Source: Acidobacteriota bacterium
GTDB lineage: Bacteria; Acidobacteriota; Vicinamibacteria; Vicinamibacterales; UBA2999
Assembly: GCA_016190945.1 (NCBI GenBank)
Contig: JACPPO010000129.1
Span: forward strand, 1 to 43,866
Length of the DNA stretch: 43,866 nucleotides
Reading direction: 5' to 3'
Part shown: positions 3,111 to 43,866 of the stretch, one piece after another
Layout of the letters: each line of letters starts with the position of its first letter
Numbering within the stretch: the first letter of the stretch is position 1
Program-made: the position numbers and the translations under genes
The notes under the pieces: model-generated
What the model saw: only the letters and a program-made list of their open reading frames with translations
Told to the model about the DNA's origin: nothing
Databases searched by the model: none

Positions 3111-4589
3111 ATGGCCGCTCCCTCGCTGCCGCAAAAGACGTTCGATCGCTCCATCGTCGACGGTCCCCTCCGTCCAGCCGTCTGGCGCCTTGCGTGGCCG
3201 ACGATGCTGCAGAACCTGATTGCCGGGCTCCAGGGCATCATCGACCACGCGATGGTCGGCCACTTCGTCGGCTACACCGCCAATGCCGCCATCGGCGTGA
3301 GCTGGCAGATCGTTATCGTCGTTATCGTTTTTGCCGTTTCGGTGTTCACCGGCATGGCCGTCCTTGTGGCGCGGTTTGCGGGCGCGAACGAGCCCGACAA
3401 GGTCAACCGCGTCGTCTATCAGGCGTTCCTCACAGCGGCGGGTCTCTCCGTTCTGCTCGGCGCCGCGGGATGGATCGCCGCGCCCGCCCTTCTCAACCTG
3501 GTGAATGCCGCACCCGATGTGCACGCGGAGGCGCTGCCGTTCCTACGCGCGATGTTCCTCGGGTTCATCGGCATGATGATGTTCTTCATGCTGAGCGGTG
3601 CCTTCCGCGCTGCCGGCGATCCCCACACGCCACTGCGTCTGGGCGTGGCGATGACGGTGCTCACCATCGCCTTCAACGTGCTGCTCATCCCGGCATTGGG
3701 CACGGTTGGTGCGGCGTACGGAACCATCGGGAGCAGCTGTCTCGTGTCTGCGTACGGCATCTGGCGGCTGATGCGCCCGGAATCGGTGATTCATTTCGCG
3801 CGCGGCATGAATCTTGGGCCCGACTTCAGCATCATCCGCGCGCTGTTCAAGTTCGGCCTGCCGACCGGCGTGCAGGGGATCGCCATGAACGTGGGAGGCG
3901 TCCTGCTGCTGCGGTTCATCGGATCCCTCGAAGAGAGCGCGGCGGCCCAGGCAGCTTACGCGGTCGGCTACACGGAGCTGTTCTCGCTGATCACCTGGAC
4001 CTCTGTCGGCCTGATGGGCGCGGCCGCCACCGTCGCGGGCCAGAATCTTGGCGCCCGCAACCCGGAGCGCGCGATCGAAGGCGTGCGCGTCGCCTCACAC
4101 ATCGGACTTGTAGTGGCCGCGGTGGTGGGCGCCATGTTCCTGCTCATCCCACGGTACTTGCTCGCCGTGTTCGGCATGACCGACATGCTGGTGATCGATA
4201 TCGGGGAGGCCCTTCTTCGGTACCTGAGCGTCTCCGGCTTATTCATCACCGTCGCCCTCAGCTATACGGGCGGGCTTCAGGGGACCGGCGACACGCGGAG
4301 TCCCCTGTATATCTCGATCCTCTCGCAGGTGGTCGTGCCTCTCGGTCTGTGTACGATTTTTCAGGCGACCACGGGACTCGAGGCGGGATATATCTGGATG
4401 GCGATTCTCGGCGGCCACGTCACCAGGTGCATGCTGAGCGTCGCGCGGTTCAGACAGCAGAAGTGGCGCGGCATCGCGGTGGACATTGGACCAACAAAGC
4501 CACGCCTTGTGACAGTCGAAGCCGAGCTGCCTGGAGCCGAACCTCACATCCCGATGCGCGAAGCGCCCGGTCCGGCGGCCCGATCCTGA
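3111..4589 (+). CDS. MATE family efflux transporter
   Basis: This inner-membrane multidrug/toxin antiporter of the MATE family has about 12 hydrophobic segments over 492 aa. The two MATE repeats are evident: PAVWRLAWPTMLQNLIAGLQ with the following MVGHFVG motif opens the first half, and FGLPTGVQGIAMNVGGVLLL opens the second. SGAFRAAGDPHTP and GGLQGTGDTRSP are the paired family motifs. ATG 3111 is chosen as start; the track's TTG at 3078 adds 11 residues that look like a hicA remnant. A polar tail of about 40 residues follows the last membrane segment. The substrate cannot be predicted. Two strong hairpins follow the stop. Confidence 0.92.
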   Translation: MAAPSLPQKTFDRSIVDGPLRPAVWRLAWPTMLQNLIAGLQGIIDHAMVGHFVGYTANAAIGVSWQIVIVVIVFAVSVFTGMAVLVARFAGANEPDKVNRVVYQAFLTAAGLSVLLGAAGWIAAPALLNLVNAAPDVHAEALPFLRAMFLGFIGMMMFFMLSGAFRAAGDPHTPLRLGVAMTVLTIAFNVLLIPALGTVGAAYGTIGSSCLVSAYGIWRLMRPESVIHFARGMNLGPDFSIIRALFKFGLPTGVQGIAMNVGGVLLLRFIGSLEESAAAQAAYAVGYTELFSLITWTSVGLMGAAATVAGQNLGARNPERAIEGVRVASHIGLVVAAVVGAMFLLIPRYLLAVFGMTDMLVIDIGEALLRYLSVSGLFITVALSYTGGLQGTGDTRSPLYISILSQVVVPLGLCTIFQATTGLEAGYIWMAILGGHVTRCMLSVARFRQQKWRGIAVDIGPTKPRLVTVEAELPGAEPHIPMREAPGPAARS

Positions 4590-7260: not shown

Positions 7261-7632
7261 CTAAATGGCGAGTCTTCGAATACTGGTGCGGAGCAGGGCG
7301 CTATTGAAGTTCATCAGCAACCCAACCGGCAGCTGTAACACCCGCATGTAGGCCAGCGTTTGCGCTTGATGAACTGCGTGCAGGGCTTCCACACTCTTAA
7401 CCTCGATGAGAACGCGATCGGAGACTACAAGGTCGGGACGATACTCGCTGATCAGATGCCCTTTATACAGAACGGGTACTCTGACCTGGCGTTTGTACGC
7501 GAGTTTCGCTTCATTGAGTCCGACGCACAGCGCCTCCTCGTAAGTGGCTTCCAGTAAGCCAGGGCCGAGATGGCGATGCACCTCAATTGCGCATCCGATG
7601 ATCAATCGAGTAAGAGGATCGTGTTCGTACAT
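7261..7632 (-). CDS. GxxExxY protein, small PD-(D/E)XK nuclease-fold protein
   Basis: The 123-aa protein carries the signature that names the family (GPGLLEATYEEAL near residue 25). It also has a PD-(D/E)XK-like core: EYRPDLVV followed by VLIEVKS, that is D-(x)n-ExK, with a conserved preceding Glu. It ends with QAQTLAYMRVLQLPVGLLMN, typical of the family. Family function is not established; a nuclease role is inferred from the fold. The ATG at 7632 is used because further upstream the frame runs into the repeat (RHRGTE). The gene sits precisely between two arms of a 27-bp inverted repeat and 31 nt downstream of the methylase stop, on the same strand. It may be a small mobile passenger, or a nuclease partner of the methylase module. 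Confidence 0.85.
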   Translation of the reverse strand: MYEHDPLTRLIIGCAIEVHRHLGPGLLEATYEEALCVGLNEAKLAYKRQVRVPVLYKGHLISEYRPDLVVSDRVLIEVKSVEALHAVHQAQTLAYMRVLQLPVGLLMNFNSALLRTSIRRLAI

Positions 7633-7663: not shown

Positions 7664-10600
7664 TCAGTGAAGGTTGCGGAATTCAAGCAATGCCCTCGCC
7701 CTCACCTCCGCCGCGATAAGCGGGAACGTCGCAAGGACATGCTCGAGGTCTCGGTCGGTCAATCCGTAGAGCTGCGCAACGAGCGCCTGAAGTACCGCGT
7801 ACTGCGGCATCTCCTCCACGGGTCCGCGGCCGCCGGCGAGCACGCGCGACAATGCCGCAAGCCTTCTGAACGCGGGGTCGTTTCCGCGGACGACGGGCAC
7901 GAGCAGTCGCGACACGAGGGTAACCGTGACGTGCGTATTCACGCGCAGGCGTATGAGGTAGTTCGCGACCAAGCTGTTGAGCAGCGCACACAGGACATGC
8001 TGCGCATCGCCAGGCAGGGGCGTCTTGAGGCAGAACAGGGTATGGGTCGTGACGGCGCGCGGAGGGATTATCGCCGCAATCAAAGTGAGACGGTTCGTCG
8101 CGCTGGCGATGTCTCGGTACGCGAGCCTGGCGCGACGCGCGATGTGCCTCGTTGTGCCACCAGGATGTAACTCGTACCTGCATCCCTCTATCGACACTCG
8201 AAATGGGTCGATCTGCTTCCCTTCGAGCACCGGCCGCGCACCCGCAGCGCCGGTGAAGGGTGCGAAGGCGCCGCTGTCGTCGGTGGCGTTCAGCTCGCGC
8301 CCAAACTGGACGTTCCATCCGTCCTCGGCCCCGAGCCAACGCAGTCGGGCGGCGATCTTCTCCAGAATCCGGAGGTCTCGTTCGGTGACCATCTCCGGAA
8401 TCCCGAGATCGTCGCCGCCGGAGAGCCGGGCAAGCAGCGGCCGCGTGACGACCAGTGGAGGATGATCGCCGTCCGGAGTGTCGAGGTCCTCGGTCCGGGT
8501 CACCCCGAAGCGGCAGGCGATGTCGCGCGTCGGCCGGCCGGCCGTGGCGGTCAACAGGACGAACCGCAGGCTCCGGTGAATCGGAAAGATTCCGCCGCGA
8601 TTATCCAGGCCGGTGACGGAGTCGACATCCGCCCTGTCGAAGAGATGCCGCCGCAGAGGCGCGGGCCCGGCGTCGGTCATGACCCCCGACGGCAGCACCA
8701 GCCCGATGCGCCCACCGGATCGCGCCAGTTGGAGCGCGCGTTCGACGAAGAGCTGGTACCGGTTGACGTGCGATCGGCTTTCGATGCGGTAGACGCCGGC
8801 CTCGCGAGCGAAGCCGGTGACGCGGCGTGCCTCGACCTTGCGGTCCGCCCGAACGTTTGCCTCGCCGCTGTCGCCACGAACCATGTCCCACGGCGGGTTG
8901 CCGAGGATCGCGTCGAACCCGGCATCCGCGAGCCGTTCGCCGCGCTCGTCGGAGAAGATCTCCGGGAACGCCAGCGGCCAGTGCATGAAACGGTAGCGCG
9001 CCGCCAGTGCAGCCGAATGTTCGAGAAAACGATCGGTCGATCGTTCGGGCAGCGTCGTGCGGCTGCTTAGGAGACGGTCGGAGAGTTCCCTGAACAGCGC
9101 GCTCCCGGGCGGCGCACCGTCCTCCCAGAACCAGCCGGCGCACCACAGATCCAGCACCGCCGACCAGCGGCCGAGTGGCGACTGCGGCGCATGGAGCGCT
9201 GCGAGCGCCTTCTCCTTTGCGCTGACTATTGCCGCGGAATCGTCCGGATCGCGGGCAAGCCGCAGACGCGTCCGCACGGCGTTCTCAAGGACCGGCGTCA
9301 CGTCAACGCCCGCGAAGAGCGGCGACGCCTCCGGTCGTCGTCGGCGAAGACCTCCGCCGGTCGGTTGCCGCAGCGCGTCGTCCAGGGTAGCGCCGATGAG
9401 ACTGTCGCCGGCCACGAGGTGATGATCGAGAAAAGTGAGCGGCTTGTCCGACGCGAGGCTGGCGAGCCAGAGCGACAGTCGCGCGAGCTGGACGGCCATC
9501 GGATTCAGGTCCACCCCGAAGAGGCACCCCTGCGCGATCTCCCGCCGTAGCGCCGCACGGTCCGCCGCCGTGACGTCGCCGTGGTGCCAGCGGCCCTCGC
9601 GGATGAGGCTTTCTTCCGTGGCTGACGCGAGATAGCGACAGGCACCGACGAGGAACGCCCCGCTACCCATCGCCGGATCCAGAATTCGCAGGCGCAGGAT
9701 CTCCTCCGCGCGGCGGCCGCGGACGAGCGGTTCGAGCGTCCGCCGCACCAGGAATGCGGTGACTGCGCGCGGTGTGTAGAAGGTGCCGCTCGACCGCCTG
9801 ACGTCGCGCGTCCGGCTCAAGCCCGACACGCTCCCGGCGGCGGCAGGCTCGTACTCCAGGACTCGCTCGTACACCGCGCCGAGCTGTTCTACGTCCAGGT
9901 CGCGGTAAGAAATTCGAACGCGTCCGGCTGCCGGCCCGCGGGTCGTGCCGACCGCCATCATCACCGCGCCCATGACCGCGTCCTCGATCCGCGTTCGATC
10001 GAAGGCGGCCGAATGCGCCGGAGCGAACAAGCGGCCATTGAACGCCGTCACTTCGAGCTCTCCCGCTGAACAGCCTGCATGGGCGAGCCGCGAGATCGCC
10101 AGAACCGCGTGCCACACGCCCCGATACCGACGCCCGGTGATTAGCGTGGCGACGATGGCCTCGATGCTGTAGCGCTCGCGGTAGACCGGATGCCACATCG
10201 GGACCAGTCCTCGTGCTTCCGCAAACAGCAGAAAGAGCACGCGATACAGCACCGTCAGCGACTGCTCGAACAAGACGAAGGGCGCTTGTTCGGGACGTGC
10301 TGATGAGAGCGCGGTGAGCAGGAATCCAAGAGCGTCGAGCACGCCGTCTCCAAGCGCTTTGCATACGGAGACGCCATGCCGGACCGACAGGACCGTCGCG
10401 CGATCCAGGAGCGGTGGGCGCGCGGCCATCGCCTCGGCCCGAATCACGCTCCAGAAGACCGTCCGGGCCGGCGCTTCCAGGGAAAGCAGCGTCAGGTCGA
10501 ACTCGAGATAGTGCCGCGACCACGTATGGTGCGCGTCGACAACGCGGAGAGCCGCGCCGTTGCAGCAGAAACACCACCGCGCATCGGCTCGGACGCCGTC

Positions 10601-10942
10601 GAGCACCAAGGCGCGCCAGCCTCGGTCGAGGGGATCGTTCCAGGGCACAATCACGACCGGCACCGAGGCGCCGGACGAAGCCACGGCCTCCAGGACGACC
10701 CGCGTACCCTCATCGGTCCGCCGACCGATTCCGAATCCAAGAATCTTCAGAAGCGGGATAACCCCGGCGTCGGCGATGGCGCGGATGCTGGAGGCGGGAC
10801 CGAGGGTCGACTCCCGTCGATCCGACCAGGCGTCGAGCGCGCGAACAACGGCCGCCGGCGGCTCCGCCGCGCCGGGCAGGGTATGGAGCGCGGTCTCCGC
10901 GAAGGTCGCGCTGATGAGACGCCCGCGAACGCCGGCGATCAT
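7664..10942 (-). CDS. Eco57I-type N6-adenine DNA methyltransferase, probably without nuclease activity
   Basis: This is a 1092-aa type IIG/PglX-like protein. Methyltransferase motif I (ILDPAMGSGAFLVGA, about residues 420-433) and motif IV (ILGNPPWDMV, about 680-688) mark an N6-adenine methylase. A TaqI-like target-recognition region follows to the C-terminus. The N-terminal 150 residues resemble the Eco57I nuclease half (WCFCCNGAALRVVD, YLEFDL). However, where an ExK would be expected the sequence reads VVIVPWNDPLD, so cleavage is doubtful. The start at 10942 is chosen because it lies one base after the helicase stop (TGA-c-ATG), indicating translational coupling; the track's longer start overlaps the helicase by more than 100 nt. 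The pairing with a SNF2-like helicase recalls drmMI-drmD of DISARM class 1, but drmABC are absent. Confidence 0.85.
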   Translation of the reverse strand: MIAGVRGRLISATFAETALHTLPGAAEPPAAVVRALDAWSDRRESTLGPASSIRAIADAGVIPLLKILGFGIGRRTDEGTRVVLEAVASSGASVPVVIVPWNDPLDRGWRALVLDGVRADARWCFCCNGAALRVVDAHHTWSRHYLEFDLTLLSLEAPARTVFWSVIRAEAMAARPPLLDRATVLSVRHGVSVCKALGDGVLDALGFLLTALSSARPEQAPFVLFEQSLTVLYRVLFLLFAEARGLVPMWHPVYRERYSIEAIVATLITGRRYRGVWHAVLAISRLAHAGCSAGELEVTAFNGRLFAPAHSAAFDRTRIEDAVMGAVMMAVGTTRGPAAGRVRISYRDLDVEQLGAVYERVLEYEPAAAGSVSGLSRTRDVRRSSGTFYTPRAVTAFLVRRTLEPLVRGRRAEEILRLRILDPAMGSGAFLVGACRYLASATEESLIREGRWHHGDVTAADRAALRREIAQGCLFGVDLNPMAVQLARLSLWLASLASDKPLTFLDHHLVAGDSLIGATLDDALRQPTGGGLRRRRPEASPLFAGVDVTPVLENAVRTRLRLARDPDDSAAIVSAKEKALAALHAPQSPLGRWSAVLDLWCAGWFWEDGAPPGSALFRELSDRLLSSRTTLPERSTDRFLEHSAALAARYRFMHWPLAFPEIFSDERGERLADAGFDAILGNPPWDMVRGDSGEANVRADRKVEARRVTGFAREAGVYRIESRSHVNRYQLFVERALQLARSGGRIGLVLPSGVMTDAGPAPLRRHLFDRADVDSVTGLDNRGGIFPIHRSLRFVLLTATAGRPTRDIACRFGVTRTEDLDTPDGDHPPLVVTRPLLARLSGGDDLGIPEMVTERDLRILEKIAARLRWLGAEDGWNVQFGRELNATDDSGAFAPFTGAAGARPVLEGKQIDPFRVSIEGCRYELHPGGTTRHIARRARLAYRDIASATNRLTLIAAIIPPRAVTTHTLFCLKTPLPGDAQHVLCALLNSLVANYLIRLRVNTHVTVTLVSRLLVPVVRGNDPAFRRLAALSRVLAGGRGPVEEMPQYAVLQALVAQLYGLTDRDLEHVLATFPLIAAEVRARALLEFRNLH

Positions 10943-10943
10943 G

Positions 10944-13391
10944 TCACTCGACGACCGCGGCAAATGCCAAGTCGCACGCGTCGCAACGCACGTCCCGGTC
11001 GGCGGCAAGCTCGCGGAGGCGGAAGGCGGAGCGGGATAGCGCCTCGTCAAGCAGCGCAGCCTGTGAAGCCGCCAGCCGCTCGTTGCGTCGGTCGAACAGC
11101 GCGCCCTGCAAGAGACCGACGGACAAGCGCGCGTGACGGTCGCGCATGGCCGCCATCAGATCGCGTTCGCGGCGCATCCACAGATTCAGTGGCTGGCGAA
11201 GCGTATCGCGGAGTTCGCCTAGTGTCTCGCCCTGCGCGACGCCGATCGCATCCTCAACGGCCGGATGGTGAGGGTTCAGAACCAGGCGAATGCGGCTGCG
11301 GCATCGTCCTGGTGCCTCTGCGAGGCTCGCCACAAGAGGCACCAGCGATTCCCAGACGACGCGGCCCGATGCGTTCGTGACGGTCATCCTGAATGCCCAG
11401 AAACACTGCCGCCCGGCAACGGTGCCGCGACGAGATCGAAGCCTTGCGATGACGGGCCGGGTTTCCACGTTCCAGTTGCCGCTGGCGTCGGTACTGGCAC
11501 TGCGCCACCCTCGGCTCCTGGCGAGGCGCTTCGCCTCTTCGCAGGCTTCGCGGCGAAGGTCGGCCGGCACGGTGCCGCCGGGAGCAGCGGGCCGCGCATC
11601 ATCGATATCGGGAAGCGGGTGGTTGCCCAGCGCCGATTCGGCGACGCGCCGCTCGTCGGGAAGTGGTCCGCAGAGGCCAATCGCGTCTCGTATCCGGCTG
11701 ATGCGGCAGGCCAGCCGCGCGAGGGTCGACTCCTCGCAGGTGCCCGCCGCCACGAGATGGATCGCATGGACTTTCCGAGCCTGCCCTATACGGTCTACTC
11801 GTCCGGCCCTCTGGTCCAGGCGCAGCGGCGTCCACGGTAACTCGAGATTGATGACGAACCGGCAGCGGTGGTGGAGGTTTAATCCTTCGCTGGCGGCATC
11901 GGTGGCCAGGAGCAGGCGGGCGCCGCCCTCCGTGAAGCGACGCAGCGCGTCGGCTCGCTCGCGTGATGCCAACCCGCCGTGCAGCTGCACGGCATCGACA
12001 TCTTCGAGCGCGAGGGCGAGACGCTGAAGCGTGTCCCGATACTCCGTGAAGATGATTGCTGGTTCCGTCGTTCTCGAGATCAGGCGGCGCAGGATCGCCA
12101 GCTTGCTTTCGGCGCCGGCGGCAACGCGTGCCAGATCGAGAAGGTGGTGCAGGCGGACCCGCTCCTCGCCGGCGTCACTCAATCCCGGCGATCGAAGCGA
12201 CGCTTCCGGCTCCTCATCGTCAACAGCCGTCTCGGCAAACGGCAGGTCGATTTGCGGAGCAAGGGCCGGTCCCGCATCCGCCAATAGGCCGATTCGCCGC
12301 TCTACGGAGCGTGCCAGCGATTCGGCGCTGCTGCAGGCGCGGCGGGCCAGCACCGACATCGCGAGCCGGGCGCCCGAGGCACCCGCACCGCTCGGTTGGT
12401 TCCACGCGAGCCGCGCGTAGGCCGTCAGCGCGGCGTGCATGGCGGCTTCGGCGGGCGTCGGCCGCACGCGCAGGAGCGTCGTGCGACGGGAGGTCGCCAT
12501 GCCGACATCGGTCCGTGTGCGCCGGAATACCAGCAACGGATGGGCGCCGTTCAGGTTTCCGACATTGCACAGCCTGCCAAACGCCTCGTCATCGCCCGAA
12601 TGCGGCGTTGCCGTCAGCAGCACGAGCGCACGCGCACGGTTTCCGACGGCGGTGGCGGCGGAGGCGCGATCGGACCTCCCCGCCAGGTTATGCGCCTCAT
12701 CGAAGACAACCAGGTCCCACGTGAGGGCTTCGAGAGACCGCATGACTTCAGGCCGCTTGATGTAGTCGATCGAGGTGATGACGACCCGCTGCACGGACCA
12801 CGGGTTCACTCCCGCGGGTAAGTGCGCTGTGAGACGGGCAACGCCTGCAGCGTCGAGCACTTCCGCGTCGAGGCGAAAACGGCTTCGCAGCTCATCGCGC
12901 CATTGGTCGCGGAGGGCCGCCGGCGAGATCACCAATGCCCGCGCATCCGGCTGGCGCAGGAGGACCTCGGCGATCATGAGGCCGGCCTGTACCGTCTTGC
13001 CCAGGCCCACTGCGTCGGCGATAAGGAACCGGCAGCCGTCGCCGCGCGCCAATGAGAGCGCAGGCTCGAGCTGAAACGGGATGAGCGTCAGATCCGCGCG
13101 GGCGGCGGCGCGCAGCGACGTCCAGGACGGGGTGGCTTCCGCCAGCACGCGTCTGGCGACATGACGCCAGCGGCGCGGGCTGACGACACGCGGTGCCGAG
13201 GACGCGTTGAGACGATCGATCGCCTCGAATGGGAGGAGAAACCCGGCCTGGCTGTTTCGGTTCGTGACGTCGCAGCCAGCCGCCTCAACAAGCGCCGCAC
13301 TGCCGTAGCTGACGTGGCGGACGATTCGCCATTTCTCATCGCGGATGCGGACGATGTCTCCGGAGCGGAACGGAGTGGTATTCGCGGCCAC
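10944..13391 (-). CDS. SNF2/RapA-like helicase of a helicase-methylase pair
   Basis: The 815-aa superfamily 2 ATPase has all core motifs: Walker A ADAVGLGKTVQAG (about 126-138), DEAHNLAG (231-238), the TATPHSGDD motif (about 260), ATDAASEGLNL and QRAGRVDRIGQ in the second RecA lobe. An N-terminal domain of about 100 residues (GDIVRIRDEKWRIVRHVSYG) and a C-terminal domain of about 200 residues flank it. Related proteins are SNF2-type translocases of the RapA/HepA and DrmD kind. The GTG at 13391 gives the longest reasonable N-terminus, but no clear Shine-Dalgarno precedes it. It is directly followed by the methylase, so the pair is one unit. A role in phage restriction by translocation is inferred, not shown. 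Confidence 0.85.
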   Translation of the reverse strand: MAANTTPFRSGDIVRIRDEKWRIVRHVSYGSAALVEAAGCDVTNRNSQAGFLLPFEAIDRLNASSAPRVVSPRRWRHVARRVLAEATPSWTSLRAAARADLTLIPFQLEPALSLARGDGCRFLIADAVGLGKTVQAGLMIAEVLLRQPDARALVISPAALRDQWRDELRSRFRLDAEVLDAAGVARLTAHLPAGVNPWSVQRVVITSIDYIKRPEVMRSLEALTWDLVVFDEAHNLAGRSDRASAATAVGNRARALVLLTATPHSGDDEAFGRLCNVGNLNGAHPLLVFRRTRTDVGMATSRRTTLLRVRPTPAEAAMHAALTAYARLAWNQPSGAGASGARLAMSVLARRACSSAESLARSVERRIGLLADAGPALAPQIDLPFAETAVDDEEPEASLRSPGLSDAGEERVRLHHLLDLARVAAGAESKLAILRRLISRTTEPAIIFTEYRDTLQRLALALEDVDAVQLHGGLASRERADALRRFTEGGARLLLATDAASEGLNLHHRCRFVINLELPWTPLRLDQRAGRVDRIGQARKVHAIHLVAAGTCEESTLARLACRISRIRDAIGLCGPLPDERRVAESALGNHPLPDIDDARPAAPGGTVPADLRREACEEAKRLARSRGWRSASTDASGNWNVETRPVIARLRSRRGTVAGRQCFWAFRMTVTNASGRVVWESLVPLVASLAEAPGRCRSRIRLVLNPHHPAVEDAIGVAQGETLGELRDTLRQPLNLWMRRERDLMAAMRDRHARLSVGLLQGALFDRRNERLAASQAALLDEALSRSAFRLRELAADRDVRCDACDLAFAAVVE

Positions 13392-39035: not shown

Positions 39036-40055
39036 ATGACCTCCCCGGAGCAGTACCGCGCTCTCAAGGACCGCGCCGCCATCGGCGCGATTGCGCCGCG
39101 AAAGACCATTGGCGTGGCCGGCAAGGACCGGGCCGGGTACCTGCAAGGCTTGCTGACCAACGACATCCAGGCGCTGACGCCGGGGACCGGCTGCTACGCT
39201 GCATGGCTGACGCCGCAGGGCCGGATGCTCACGGACATGCACGTCTTTGAGTCCGGCGACATGATTCTGCTGGATGTCCCTGCCGATGCCCTGCCTGCCA
39301 CGCTGCAACGCCTGGATCAATTCCTTTTCAGTGAAGACGTTCAGTTTGCGGATCTGTCGGAGACATTGGACGCGGTGTGGGTCCACGGGCCGGCTGCCTC
39401 GTCGATGCTCGAACAGGTGGTGACAGGCGCGTCGGGACTAGCGCTGGGATTCGCGGCGTGGTCCGAGTATCACAACACCCGGGCTGAATTCGGCGGGTTA
39501 CCGGTCGTGGTTGCACGCGTCAGCCAATTGGGCGTTCCCGGCTTCGTTATCTACATCGAGCCGGCGCGCCGGTCCGACCTCCGGCGTGCGCTCGTCGAAA
39601 GAGGCGCGATTGCCGCGGAGCACGCTGCCATCGAGGCGGCACGGGTTGAAGCCGGCTATCCGCTGTTCGGTCTTGATATGACCGAGGAGACGATCCCGCT
39701 CGAAGCAGGGATTGAGGACCGCGCCATCTCGCTGAGCAAGGGATGCTACGTGGGGCAGGAGGTCATTATCCGAGTCCTTCACCGCGGACATGGACGGGTT
39801 GCGAAGCGGCTGGTGGCGCTGCGCATGCAAGAGGGGCAGCCGCAGAACGTGCCCGCCAGAGGCGCGAGAATCTTCTCCGAAGCCCGTGAGGTCGGTGGGG
39901 TGACAAGCGCGGCGAGCTCGCCGCGGCTTGGACCGATTGCGCTCGGGTACGTCCACCGCGACTTTGTTACCCCGGGCACGCGTGTCGAGGTGGAAACACG
40001 TTCGGGCCGCGCGGCGGCGATCGTCAGCGAGCTCGGGAAGGTTGAATCGTGCTAG
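39036..40055 (+). CDS. ygfZ: Folate-binding protein YgfZ (Fe-S cluster maintenance)
   Basis: This 339-aa member of the GcvT-like family uses tetrahydrofolate and helps assemble or repair Fe-S proteins such as MiaB. The diagnostic motif KGCYVGQEVIIR is intact (about residues 235-245). YLQGLLTNDIQALTPGTG and the GYPLFGLDMTEETIPLEAGI segment also match. ATG 39036 is chosen over the upstream frame. The last 120 codons are duplicated downstream of hicAB (40612-40972). Its stop TAG shares the CTAG palindrome at 40052-40055 with the convergent hicB stop. Radical SAM and other Fe-S enzymes in this genome may depend on it. Confidence 0.93.
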   Translation: MTSPEQYRALKDRAAIGAIAPRKTIGVAGKDRAGYLQGLLTNDIQALTPGTGCYAAWLTPQGRMLTDMHVFESGDMILLDVPADALPATLQRLDQFLFSEDVQFADLSETLDAVWVHGPAASSMLEQVVTGASGLALGFAAWSEYHNTRAEFGGLPVVVARVSQLGVPGFVIYIEPARRSDLRRALVERGAIAAEHAAIEAARVEAGYPLFGLDMTEETIPLEAGIEDRAISLSKGCYVGQEVIIRVLHRGHGRVAKRLVALRMQEGQPQNVPARGARIFSEAREVGGVTSAASSPRLGPIALGYVHRDFVTPGTRVEVETRSGRAAAIVSELGKVESC

Positions 40056-40079
40056 GCGGTCTTCCGGGGCCGGCCTCCC
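39695..40079 (+). repeat. Direct repeat copy A: ygfZ 3' end plus hicB 3' end
   Basis: This region aligns without gaps to 40612-40996 at a constant offset of 917 nt. By hand count about 42 of the first 361 positions differ. Roughly 31 of those fall within 39781-39900, while 39952-40036 is identical. Homology continues past the ygfZ stop into the last codons of hicB. Confidence 0.85.
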
Positions 40080-40378
40080 AGTCGGCCATTCACTTGAGAC
40101 GCGCGCGCCTTGCGCCGGCTCCGACCCGCGCCAAGCAGGGCGCCTACACCAACGATGCGCACCTTCGACCGCTGACGGTCGGACACACGGGCGACCCGAA
40201 CCTGGCTCGTCGGCACGCTGTCGGGATGCGCCTCGAGATACGCGGCCAGCGTCCCACGAATCGCCCGCTCAGCCTTCGTCCGCGTGTCAGCGGCCGCGAA
40301 CACCGGCAACCCCGGCACGTAGGCGCTCACGGCGCCACTCGCCTCGGTTTCCATCACAATGGGGTAGTAGGTTGTCAT
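40052..40378 (-). CDS. hicB: HicB antitoxin
   Basis: This 108-aa antitoxin has a HicB fold N-terminus (YYPIVMETEASGAVSAYVPG, then LPVFAAADTRTKAERAIRGT) and the typical conserved helix LAAYLEAHPDSVP. A basic C-terminal tail (VNGRLGGRPRKTA) resembles the Arg-rich ends of DNA-binding HicB proteins. It follows hicA with an ATGA overlap, the order hicA-hicB being the common one. It is expected to bind HicA and repress the operon at the palindrome 40572-40587. Its stop overlaps the ygfZ stop. Confidence 0.9.
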   Translation of the reverse strand: MTTYYPIVMETEASGAVSAYVPGLPVFAAADTRTKAERAIRGTLAAYLEAHPDSVPTSQVRVARVSDRQRSKVRIVGVGALLGAGRSRRKARASQVNGRLGGRPRKTA

Positions 40379-40560
40379 TGAATCCCTGCCTCCCGAAGAA
40401 TCCGGTTACCCAACTGGCCGGCATCCTTCTTCGTGTGGACGGCAATCCAGATCTCCTTACCTGTCGTGGCGTGCTTGAAGAGCCGGTGACTGCCCTTCCC
40501 GCTCCGTGTTTCAGCATAGCCGGCTGCCTCGAGCTTCCGGATCACCTCGCCCCACGTCAC
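40375..40560 (-). CDS. hicA: HicA toxin (mRNA interferase)
   Basis: This 61-aa toxin has a dsRBD-like fold. It shows TWGEVIRKLEAAGYAETRSG, the catalytic His in GKGSHRLFKHA, and the end KKDAGQLGNRILREAGI, all as in HicA. GTG 40560 is chosen; the track's longer frame passes through the operator palindrome and the ygfZ fragment in antisense. The normal HicA signature GSHxxF is intact, so the toxin should be active. A perfect palindrome lies 11 nt upstream of the start. Confidence 0.9.
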   Translation of the reverse strand: MTWGEVIRKLEAAGYAETRSGKGSHRLFKHATTGKEIWIAVHTKKDAGQLGNRILREAGIQ

Positions 40561-40571
40561 GAAGGGAGAAT

Positions 40572-40587
40572 AACCTATCGATAGGTT
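40572..40587. promoter_or_regulatory. 16-bp perfect palindrome, likely hicAB operator
   Basis: AACCTATCGATAGGTT is fully self-complementary and AT-richer than its surroundings. It sits 11 nt upstream of the hicA start. It overlaps a possible -10 (TATCGA or TATTCT on the minus strand). Autoregulation of hicAB by the HicB dimer at such sites is established for the family. Confidence 0.65.
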
Positions 40588-40611
40588 CTCGGCAAAACGA
40601 GCCGGCGCGGA

Positions 40612-40972
40612 CCCGCTCGAAGCCGGGATTGAGGACCGCGCCATCTCGTTGAGCAAGGGATGCTACGTGGGGCAGGAGGTCATCATCCGAGTTCTTCACC
40701 GCGGGCATGGACGCGTTGTCAAGAAGCTGGTGGGGCTACGTCTGCGAGGCGAGCAGGCCCAGGAGCTACCCGAAAAAGGCGCGAAGATTTATTCGGAACA
40801 CCGTGATGTCGGTGGGGTGACGAGCGCGGCCAGCTCGCCGCGGCTTGGACCGATCGCGCTCGGGTACATCCACCGCGACTTTGTTACCCCGGGCACGCGT
40901 GTCGAGGTGGAAACACGTTCGGGCCGCGCGGCGGCGATCGTCAGCGAGCTCGGAAAGATTGAATCGTGCTAA
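40612..40972 (+). pseudogene. Truncated second copy of the 3' end of ygfZ
   Basis: The frame encodes the last 120 residues of YgfZ (LEAGIEDRAISLSKGCYVGQ and onwards to ELGKIESC) with no N-terminal part. It retains a complete open frame and its own stop (TAA). The protein differs from YgfZ mainly in one segment (VVKKLVGLRLRGEQAQELPE against VAKRLVALRMQEGQPQNVPA), while the last 50 residues differ by only two. No start codon with a ribosome site is evident, so it is treated as a fragment. The homology extends to 40996 over a HicB tail remnant. Confidence 0.85.
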
Positions 40973-40996
40973 TCGGTCTTCCAGGGCCGGCCTTCC
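40969..40996 (-). pseudogene. Remnant of a second hicB 3' end
   Basis: Read on the minus strand, these bases encode GRPWKTD and a stop at the same 917-nt offset as the GRPRKTA end of hicB. Homology ends here, next to the stop of the flavodoxin gene (41001). The short match is convincing only because it continues the ygfZ repeat without a gap. Confidence 0.55.
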
Positions 40997-41000
40997 TCGG

Positions 41001-41612
41001 TTACCTCGTGGCTCCGCTTTTGACAAGAGCAGCGACTTCCGCGACACGCTTGCCCAAGGCGCGCGCTTCTGCCGCTTCCTTCTCATCGACACCCGGCGAG
41101 TCAGGTCCCGTTGTCGCGCTCGCGCCGAATCCTCCGCCGCCGCTGACGACGATCATCTCGTTGATGAGCATGGCGCCGAGGATCGTGACGATTGTGAATT
41201 CCTTTCCATTGGAGAACGCTGCGCCAGTCGCAAACGCCGCCCCGACCTTGTTCCGCATTCGGCGGTCCGGGAACACACCGAACTTCGTCGTCCAGTCCTC
41301 AAAAAACGTCTTCACCTCTCCCGCCATGGAGCCAAAATAGACCGGTGATCCGACGATCACGGCGTCGGATATCAGGAGATCATTGGTGGTTACGTCACCG
41401 ACTCGCTTCAGAACGACCTTCGTTCCTGACACGGCCTGAGCGCCCGCTGTCACTTCCTGGGCCATCTTCTCGGTGTTGCCCGTTCCGGAGTGGTAAGTGA
41501 CCAGCACCGTAATTGGCTGGGCTTCTGCCGCGGCGACGGCGGTCCCAACGAGCATCAGCACCACAAGCACTGACAGGACTCCAGCTTCTTTCGGACACGC
41601 TCGCCTGCTCAT
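41001..41612 (-). CDS. Exported flavodoxin-like protein
   Basis: This 203-aa protein has a signal peptide (VLSVLVVLMLVGTAVAAAEA) followed by a flavodoxin/WrbA-like FMN domain. The phosphate loop is VTYHSGTGNTEKMAQ, and SDAVIVGSPVYFGSMAGEVK and GGGGFGASATTG follow as in NAD(P)H:quinone oxidoreductases of the WrbA group. An ATG with AAGGAG 6 nt upstream fixes the start. Flavodoxins are normally cytoplasmic, so a signal peptide is unusual. Export of a folded flavoprotein would need Tat or periplasmic flavin insertion; the visible N-region (MSRRACPKE) has an Arg pair but not the full Tat motif. Confidence 0.85.
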   Translation of the reverse strand: MSRRACPKEAGVLSVLVVLMLVGTAVAAAEAQPITVLVTYHSGTGNTEKMAQEVTAGAQAVSGTKVVLKRVGDVTTNDLLISDAVIVGSPVYFGSMAGEVKTFFEDWTTKFGVFPDRRMRNKVGAAFATGAAFSNGKEFTIVTILGAMLINEMIVVSGGGGFGASATTGPDSPGVDEKEAAEARALGKRVAEVAALVKSGATR

Positions 41613-41918: not shown

Positions 41919-42506
41919 TCAGGTTGCTGCCAATGGAAAATGAGAGTCCAAATCTTGGCTTGCTACCCTCGCCAACACTGACGGCCATGCCAAGCCCGAC
42001 AGCTGAATGCGCAGCATCTTGAAACTGCCTTCGACTGCTGCCCCGATGTCGCTTTCCAGCCCCGGAAGCCCGATCTGCGCTGGAATCTCCTGCCCTCCGT
42101 CAAACCCGCGCGAGTCGAACGTGACGTCATTCCTCTGGGGGATGCCGCCCTCGTGGAGGGTGACTAACGTGCAAGTCTCTTCAATGCGGGTACCGTCTCG
42201 ATATTGCGCCAGAAGCACAACGATCTCATCAGAATCACGCACATCCAACACTCGATTCTGGTAGTACGTGCCGGACAAAGCGAAGGCGGCGCAGACCTGT
42301 TTCCCGCGATCCCCGTCGAGGGTGAGCTTCTCCCAGGTGACGTCCGTAATCTTGGCGATTTCGTCCTTCAGGCCACTTTTCAGGCCGGCAAGCACGAGGT
42401 AGCGGTACTGGCCGCCGCCTGTCTGAGATTGCGCTTCAGCGTGAGACGTGAGAGCAAGGAATCCGGCGAGCAAGACGACGAACTTGAACAAGATCGGCCG
42501 CAGCAT
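41919..42506 (-). CDS. Exported protein of unknown function (195 aa)
   Basis: I do not recognise a family. A signal peptide is clear (LFKFVVLLAGFLALTSHAEAQ), and AGGTG lies 5 nt before the ATG at 42506. The mature part is rich in beta-type segments (YRYLVLAGLKSG, EIVVLLAQYRDGTRIEETCT) with two Cys (QVCAAFALSG and ETCTLVTL) that might form a disulfide. No lipobox or membrane segment follows. GC content is lower than in the core region, so it may belong to an acquired segment with the next two genes. Confidence 0.65.
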   Translation of the reverse strand: MLRPILFKFVVLLAGFLALTSHAEAQSQTGGGQYRYLVLAGLKSGLKDEIAKITDVTWEKLTLDGDRGKQVCAAFALSGTYYQNRVLDVRDSDEIVVLLAQYRDGTRIEETCTLVTLHEGGIPQRNDVTFDSRGFDGGQEIPAQIGLPGLESDIGAAVEGSFKMLRIQLSGLAWPSVLARVASQDLDSHFPLAAT

Positions 42507-42818: not shown

Positions 42819-43280
42819 ATGGACGCTTCGACTCAGATTGGAATTGTCGGAATTCTGGTTGCTGTGTTGCTGTGGCTGATCGACAGGCGGGGTAAGGCCG
42901 TGCCACGAGGGCGATTCGCACATCTGCGGGATCTGCCGCGACAGGAGTTGAAGTTGTTTGGCCTGGCCTTCAAGCGAAGCGCGCGATATGGCGAGCTTGA
43001 CCGGAAGTGGTGGGACGGGAATCCGTACAACAAGGCCGCCGGGAGTGCTGAGAAGGCAGAGGCGTTCGAGGCACTCGGACAACGCAGTCTGATGGTCGCG
43101 ATGGGTTTGACGTCCGCCCGTAAGTTCGCAGAGGTTGCTGAGAACCTAAAGCGCCTGGGCCTCATTCAGTACGGACCAGTTGACCTCGATATTTACCCGG
43201 ATATCTGTATGGTGTTCATCACTGACCTGGGACTGGCAGCAGCTCGAGGAGTTCCCAAACTAAACCGAGCAAGTGTTTAG
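42819..43280 (+). CDS. Membrane-anchored protein of unknown function (153 aa)
   Basis: I do not recognise a family. ATG 42819 starts a protein with one N-terminal membrane helix (IGIVGILVAVLLWLI), then RRGKAVPRG, so the C-terminal part is predicted cytoplasmic. That part is mainly helical and contains ALGQRSLMVAMGLTSARKFAEVAENLKRLG (in part), which looks like a small winged-helix or helical bundle, and ends with DIYPDICMVFITDLGLAAARG. Codon use and GC content are unlike the core genes upstream. It is followed 44 nt later by another membrane protein gene on the same strand. Confidence 0.65.
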   Translation: MDASTQIGIVGILVAVLLWLIDRRGKAVPRGRFAHLRDLPRQELKLFGLAFKRSARYGELDRKWWDGNPYNKAAGSAEKAEAFEALGQRSLMVAMGLTSARKFAEVAENLKRLGLIQYGPVDLDIYPDICMVFITDLGLAAARGVPKLNRASV

Positions 43281-43324: not shown

Positions 43325-43807
43325 ATGACTGCCAGGGATAAAGCCGGAGCTGGCATTCGCATTGGTGCGGTGTGGACGATTGTCGCCTTGATCTGGACGA
43401 TAGTCGGGAATCTTCAGCAGTTGGAGCAGCTGAAGAACGACATGCCGAAAATTGTGGAGGCTCTGCTGTCTCTGATTGGCGGCGTATTTCTGTCAATCAT
43501 CTGTTTGGTTGTATATGCGGTGCTGTGGTTGATTGAGCGACGCACCCCTCCTGTACAGATGACGCTTGTCGGCAAGTTCTTCCACACGTTCCGTTCAGGC
43601 GACACAACTTGGCAGTATCAGGGTCGGGTCCTGCGAGAGGAAAACGGGCGTCTGTTCGTTCAGCTCTACGAGGTAGTAGCAGGCATGGCTTCGACACAGC
43701 AGTTTCTGACCGACGAACAAGCCGCTAGTGCTCGTTTTTACGACTCAGAGGAAGAGTGGAGGGAGGCCGGTGAGCGGATGAATCGTCAGAGTATGCCGCG
43801 TCGTTAG
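43325..43807 (+). CDS. Membrane protein of unknown function with two helices (160 aa)
   Basis: Two hydrophobic segments (GAVWTIVALIWTIVGN and LIGGVFLSIICLVVYAVLWLI) are separated by a helical linker (LQQLEQLKNDMPKIVEAL). A cytoplasmic-type tail of about 80 residues (MTLVGKFFHTFRSGDTTWQY, then GRVLREENGRLFVQLYEVV) ends with an acidic segment. No known family is apparent. It forms a pair with the gene at 42819. The two may be parts of a small membrane system of acquired DNA, but no partner function is visible. The remaining 59 nt of the window hold nothing recognisable. Confidence 0.65.
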   Translation: MTARDKAGAGIRIGAVWTIVALIWTIVGNLQQLEQLKNDMPKIVEALLSLIGGVFLSIICLVVYAVLWLIERRTPPVQMTLVGKFFHTFRSGDTTWQYQGRVLREENGRLFVQLYEVVAGMASTQQFLTDEQAASARFYDSEEEWREAGERMNRQSMPRR

Positions 43808-43866
43808 CCTTCAGCACTCGGTTCGCACATCATCAAGCGATCAGTCCGAACGCCGCGGCGGCAAAC

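Follow-up and report, generated by a model that had tools for sequence, protein, structure and literature searches.

A repeated gene end around hicAB

How a bacterial gene came to have its 3' end twice, once within the complete gene and once as a free-standing piece, with a toxin-antitoxin pair in between, is the question that this locus raises. The window, i.e., the whole stretch of DNA that was analysed (43,866 nt), is a single contig of a 158-contig draft assembly that is 78% complete, and the relatives of the genome belong to the Acidobacteriota, Vicinamibacterales. An intact gene for a GcvT-like, folate-binding YgfZ protein of 339 amino acids occupies positions 39036-40055 of the forward strand (Pfam GCV_T, 7e-32, and GCV_T_C, 2e-15; TIGR03317 CAF17_like_YgfZ above its cut-off) and is the sole full copy of ygfZ found in the genome. 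Its 3' end, together with the tail of hicB (39695-40079, forward strand; copy 1), aligns without gaps to 40612-40996 (copy 2), and hicAB is flanked on both sides by target-type direct repeats of 385 nt each at an offset of 917 nt; our realignment reproduced the coordinates that the first-pass annotation had given for this repeat. Copy 2 starts at a position that lies in the middle of ygfZ, and its orphan ygfZ 3' end (40612-40972, forward strand) is open in frame, contains no indel and ends with a TAA stop.

The repeat unit reaches into hicB, as had been noticed at the outset: both the ygfZ 3' end and the hicB tail are duplicated, the hicB portion being as short as about 26 nt, the last 8 or so codons. 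The hicB tail is intact after copy 1, whereas copy 2 ends with CTAA and then some 26 nt of a hicB tail that has suffered damaging changes. This remnant of about 8 decayed codons (40969-40996, reverse strand; GRPWKTD and a stop) carries changes of R to W and of A to D that are unexpected in a working gene. The YgfZ C-terminus, SELGK[VI]ESC followed by a stop, is joined to the hicB tail in both copies and is different in the aligned relatives. Since the ygfZ/hicB junction is present in both copies, it must predate the duplication.

The hicAB cassette and its surroundings

The module itself is intact. The hicA toxin gene (40375-40560, reverse strand, 61 amino acids) matches Pfam HicA_toxin above its cut-off (1.8e-9), encodes a GSH motif and starts with a GTG that lines up with the ATG or GTG starts of its homologues. 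It overlaps by ATGA with a gene for a HicB-like antitoxin of 108 amino acids (40052-40378, reverse strand), which scores 16.2 bits against Pfam HicB_lk_antitox (E 0.012), under the 27-bit cut-off, and homologues of which, 86-89% identical, adjoin hicA in two related genomes (G012 and G050). The genes ygfZ and hicB are placed tail to tail, and their TAG stops overlap at 40052-40055, where the sequence is the palindrome CTAG. Related hicAB pairs whose DNA is 81-85% identical lie in four unrelated surroundings, in G104, G012, G110 and G050; the points where similarity to them stops define a cassette at 40052-40596, bounded by the hicB stop on one side and by GGCAA at 40596 on the other. A perfect 16-nt palindrome, AACCTATCGATAGGTT, is located 5' of hicA at 40572-40587; homologous loci keep it as CCTAnCGnTAGG, and it is probably an operator for HicB or a promoter element.

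Other hicAB insertions, which were to be checked for 3' ends of target genes, do not in general carry them: at about 17 other hicAB loci with readable flanks (up to 1.5 kb per side, some cut by contig ends) there are no gene-end repeats, save for G110. In that genome (locus L087) a related hicAB lies between 27-nt direct repeats, TGTNACCCATGTCCCCGGAATGGACCA, at 1466-1492 and 2082-2108, which are possibly the ends of an insertion sequence and have just these two exact copies in the genome. Searches of plasmids returned neither a DNA match nor a HicB match, and those of viral contigs a single HicB relative (58%).

The cassette is separated from copy 2 by a filler of 15 nt (40597-40611, forward strand), in which a 12-mer, 40598-40609, occurs elsewhere in the window only at 39557-39568 of ygfZ. 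Of the 14365 15-mers in the window that are GC-rich, 4 have a same-strand match as good, i.e., the chance is about 3e-4, which suggests either that the incoming piece of ygfZ began further upstream and was then trimmed or that ygfZ was copied into the joint.

On its other side copy 2 adjoins low-GC DNA. At about position 41000 the GC content breaks from 0.65-0.70 on the left to 0.53-0.62 on the right, and remains there to the end of the contig (41001-43866). This stretch, a possible genomic island, contains a flavodoxin/FMN-reductase gene (41001-41612, reverse strand) and open reading frames at 41919-42506 on the reverse strand and at 42819-43280 and 43325-43807 on the forward strand, and it sits where relatives have mutT and mutY. 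In the 78% complete genome, with the contig stopping at 43866, a search for mutT found nothing and one for mutY only a distant homologue. A scan of the proteins encoded beside the repeat, within the contig that ends at 43866, turned up no integrase, and tRNA and Rfam scans found nothing.

In another part of the window, at 7664-13391, a large methyltransferase-like protein is encoded beside an SNF2-type helicase; their best PADLOC matches are DrmMI (4e-102) and DrmD (5e-75), and the region is possibly a DISARM-like or a type IIG restriction locus.

The two copies are mosaic

The first-pass annotation had counted 42 mismatches between the copies, 31 of them clustered. The clustering was upheld while the count was not: the copies differ at 46 positions, 43 of which are coding, and 33 of these 43 are packed into one window of 120 nt. 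With mismatches placed uniformly, none of 20000 trials gave clustering this tight and 7 of them gave a mismatch-free gap as long as the one observed, which contradicts the even spread that had been named beforehand as the finding to speak against a mosaic. The 85-nt block of identity that had been described was found at 39952-40036 (forward strand, 0 differences) and is a probable crossover or conversion tract. As to the mosaic breakpoints, the segmentation preferred by BIC has breaks at 39797 and 39884 and divides the alignment into 39695-39796 (5 differences in 102 positions), 39797-39883 (30 in 87) and 39884-40079 (11 in 196), so that a forward-strand block of 87 nt with 34% divergence is set between flanks with about 5%. 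A five-segment version isolates 39952-40036 (0 in 85), but BIC prefers the three-segment model to the one that isolates this tract. Third codon positions behave in the same way: 13 of their 23 differences fall inside a window of 29 codons (p=0.004), their longest identical stretch is 32 (p=0.008), and their differences in the block compared with the flanks give a Fisher p of about 5e-5. Because third positions cluster too, protein constraint alone is rejected as the cause of the clustering.

Copy 2 retains the properties of a working gene. Against a ygfZ family profile built from 42 relatives, copy 1 scores 168.0 bits and copy 2 scores 166.6 bits, and in Pfam GCV_T_C copy 2 reaches 60.4 bits versus 56.6 bits for the full gene. 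When copy 1 was mutated neutrally at 15, 21, 30 or 42 sites (1000 simulations each), the score was never retained, and at 10 sites it was retained in 0.5% of simulations; block-only and flank-only differences, when tested separately on the profile, gave a like result. The count of amino-acid changes, taken by itself, is still compatible with half-neutral evolution of copy 2. Since neutral mutations never kept the profile score, copy 2 acquired its differences as part of a functional ygfZ in another lineage and not as a drifted pseudogene, and the two copies act as diverged functional alleles, not as repeats made from one target sequence. The uneven mismatches, the clustered third positions and the undrifted state of copy 2 together sustain the earlier claim that the locus is a mosaic and not the product of simple duplication and drift.

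The ygfZ/mutT site in relatives

In the Vicinamibacterales near this genome, the usual layout is an abhydrolase gene pointing to the left, ygfZ pointing to the right and then mutT and mutY pointing to the left, and in most of the closest genera the ends of ygfZ and the convergent mutT abut or overlap. The relatives examined come from related genera, none being of the same genus, and all of them lack a second ygfZ end or hicAB at the site; relatives from the closest genera have an empty site with one copy of ygfZ. Relatives without hicAB that already had both ends, which had been put forward as grounds against the proposal, were thus not encountered. The divergent block offers 24 informative sites within some 90 nt for a call on direction: G017, the nearest relative at 76% identity, matches copy 1 at 19 of these discordant sites and copy 2 at the other 5 (p=0.007). 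Comparison with relatives from other genera, which had been proposed as a way to tell the native copy, accordingly places the block of copy 1 closer to G017; judged from these sites, the native allele is probably the one with the block of copy 1. An insertion within the divergent block is common to both copies and G017 and is absent from other close relatives, which indicates that the donor was a near relative and that both alleles come from one clade.

G017 has an insertion of its own at the same place between ygfZ and mutT. It is 4.3 kb long (locus L079), its cargo includes DUF4230 and DUF6351 (tannase-like) genes, and it is flanked by diverged repeats of about 94 nt of the mutT/ygfZ ends (3153-3236 and 7503-7596; 74% identity). 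It is a separate event of the same type that brought in other cargo, and the two insertions together suggest that convergent gene ends tolerate such events. A more general idea, that the tail-to-tail ygfZ/mutT ends of this clade are a preferred landing place where toxin-antitoxin modules and other genes insert without an integrase, every insertion duplicating a long piece of the gene ends, and where recombination between the diverged copies swaps the YgfZ C-terminus and gains or loses hicAB, is very doubtful in our estimate. In a further genome (G013, locus L116, about 1030-1410), a tandem array of units of about 104 nt lies between ygfZ and mutT.

Origin of the repeat

The repeat, its junctions, the allelic nature of copy 2 and the GC break are established by the comparisons above. 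With somewhat better than even confidence, we favour an origin in which a donor fragment containing a ygfZ 3' end and hicAB had its ends joined and was integrated via one crossover in ygfZ. In an ancestor, a hicAB cassette of about 545 bp would have landed tail to tail on the ygfZ stop, in the place that mutT has in relatives, as the junction common to both copies argues. The lineages would then have split, and one of them would have lost hicAB save for its last codons, beside low-GC DNA. A fragment of the other lineage, extending from inside ygfZ through hicAB, may then have entered, its ends joined at 40597-40611, and have been integrated through one crossover in ygfZ, for which the identical tract of 85 nt is the probable place; an equivalent route would be homologous recombination at one end and illegitimate recombination at the other. 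The body of ygfZ including the divergent block would thus be native, its last part and hicAB would come from the donor, and to the right of hicAB there would be the donor-type block of copy 2 and then the native hicB remnant with the DNA that follows. A native gene body fits the agreement of G017 with the divergent block of copy 1, and the intact hicB tail on the side of copy 1 and the decayed one on the side of copy 2 fit as well. The identical tract amid differing neighbours supports a crossover; the non-homologous joint is seen at 40597-40611, while the homologous crossover, the circular or illegitimate nature of the joint and the donor are what we infer, the crossover from this tract only. 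The contrast between 34% and 5% divergence is against the model: one crossover is not enough to produce it, and an older mosaic parental allele or conversion of the flanks is required.

That contrast would also be accounted for by an imported block if a 917-bp unit of ygfZ 3' end and hicAB had been duplicated in tandem in place, the second hicAB deleted down to its tail and the middle block converted from a foreign ygfZ. We consider this unlikely, though a serious candidate. The content of the repeat unit, a ygfZ 3' end and a hicB tail, agrees with the tandem duplication and later conversion that the first-pass annotation had allowed for, and the 12-mer of ygfZ in the joint is a hint that this unit formerly started further upstream, but the flanks do not agree: their 12 differences fit a working gene, neutral mutation with 12 changes never kept the score and with 6 changes kept the observed score in 1.3% of cases, and decay would be expected in a 3' end standing on its own, unless it was repeatedly converted. 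The other option that the annotation had offered, in which ygfZ received a 3' end that is foreign throughout, is not favoured: it is the block of copy 1, the copy attached to the gene, that matches G017 (19 versus 5 sites), and the orphan copy 2, next to low-GC DNA, that is odd.

Two co-occurring strains, one with ygfZ-hicAB and the other with ygfZ, a hicB remnant and low-GC DNA, could have been misjoined at 40597-40611 during assembly, and the fragmented and incomplete draft, the resemblance of the copies to alleles of two lineages and the GC shifts across the region are in line with this. Such a chimera is nevertheless quite improbable, given that the joint lies in unique, non-shared sequence, where k-mer collapse does not produce it, that the filler holds a ygfZ 12-mer as repair joints can, and that there is no run of N. 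The sequence of an intact gene, cargo and an orphan 3' end, with low-GC DNA next to it, is the layout expected of a site-specific integrative element that brought a replacement 3' end and used ygfZ as its attachment gene, and yet such an element is highly improbable here: neither an integrase nor a tRNA was found in the scans next to the repeat, the repeat, with its 385 nt and its diverged copies, is unlike an att core, which would be short and identical, the low-GC genes are outside the repeats, and the other hicAB loci, about 17, are without such ends. Finally, the divergent block is a variable part of the protein in relatives, so ordinary duplication and drift might have left the differences clustered in a loosely constrained part; the clustering of third positions (p=0.004; block versus flanks, about 5e-5) and the undrifted profile score of copy 2 make this barely credible.

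As the two copies are in register, a RecA-dependent exchange between them would be expected to remove the 917-bp unit, hicAB included, or to multiply it; with the frame kept and no gaps between the copies, ygfZ would be left open after any such exchange. A cell that lost hicAB would face the HicA toxin, provided that this pair works like known HicAB pairs. The locus can be viewed as a readable fossil of the transfer of a toxin-antitoxin pair between related bacteria without integrase or transposase, in which one can still see the two parental alleles and what is probably the crossover tract. The process is known in outline and our understanding of HicAB or YgfZ is unchanged by the locus, but in this example both parental versions have been kept next to each other.

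Comparison with known systems

Integrative elements can restore the 3' end of their target gene, and the gene layout described here is like theirs. It is unlike them in that no integrase is seen, there is no short identical att core and the arrangement is not general among these hicAB loci. The pair itself resembles the HicAB toxin-antitoxin systems that have been reviewed (PMC11594946) in the hicA-hicB order, the overlapping ATGA, the Pfam match of HicA and the upstream palindrome, and differs from them in a hicB that is under the Pfam cut-off and has a basic tail at its end.

Two relevant routes have been described in bacteria, namely the ligation of linear DNA into a circle that then undergoes a single crossover, and homology-facilitated illegitimate recombination (PMC3240628). 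Our locus is like the former in that a single crossover of a ligated fragment yields an insertion with a partial repeat, and like the latter in having homology at one end and a non-homologous joint at the other; unlike those routes, it is inferred afterwards from one genome and was not observed. Insertion with long target duplication is known for restriction-modification genes of Helicobacter pylori (Nobusato et al. 2000, as cited in PMC3031569, PMC1643837 and PMC3874152): some restriction-modification systems insert with long, variable target duplications of about 100 bp (PMC3874152), and similar remarks have been made on how the resulting repeats permit the loss or multiplication of these genes (PMC3031569). 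There, as here, an addiction-type pair lies between long direct repeats with no integrase or transposase seen, and amplification or loss is possible. In contrast to duplications of the order of 100 nt, however, the repeat around this hicAB pair is about 385 nt long, its copies are diverged mosaic alleles and it includes the inserted pair's own end.
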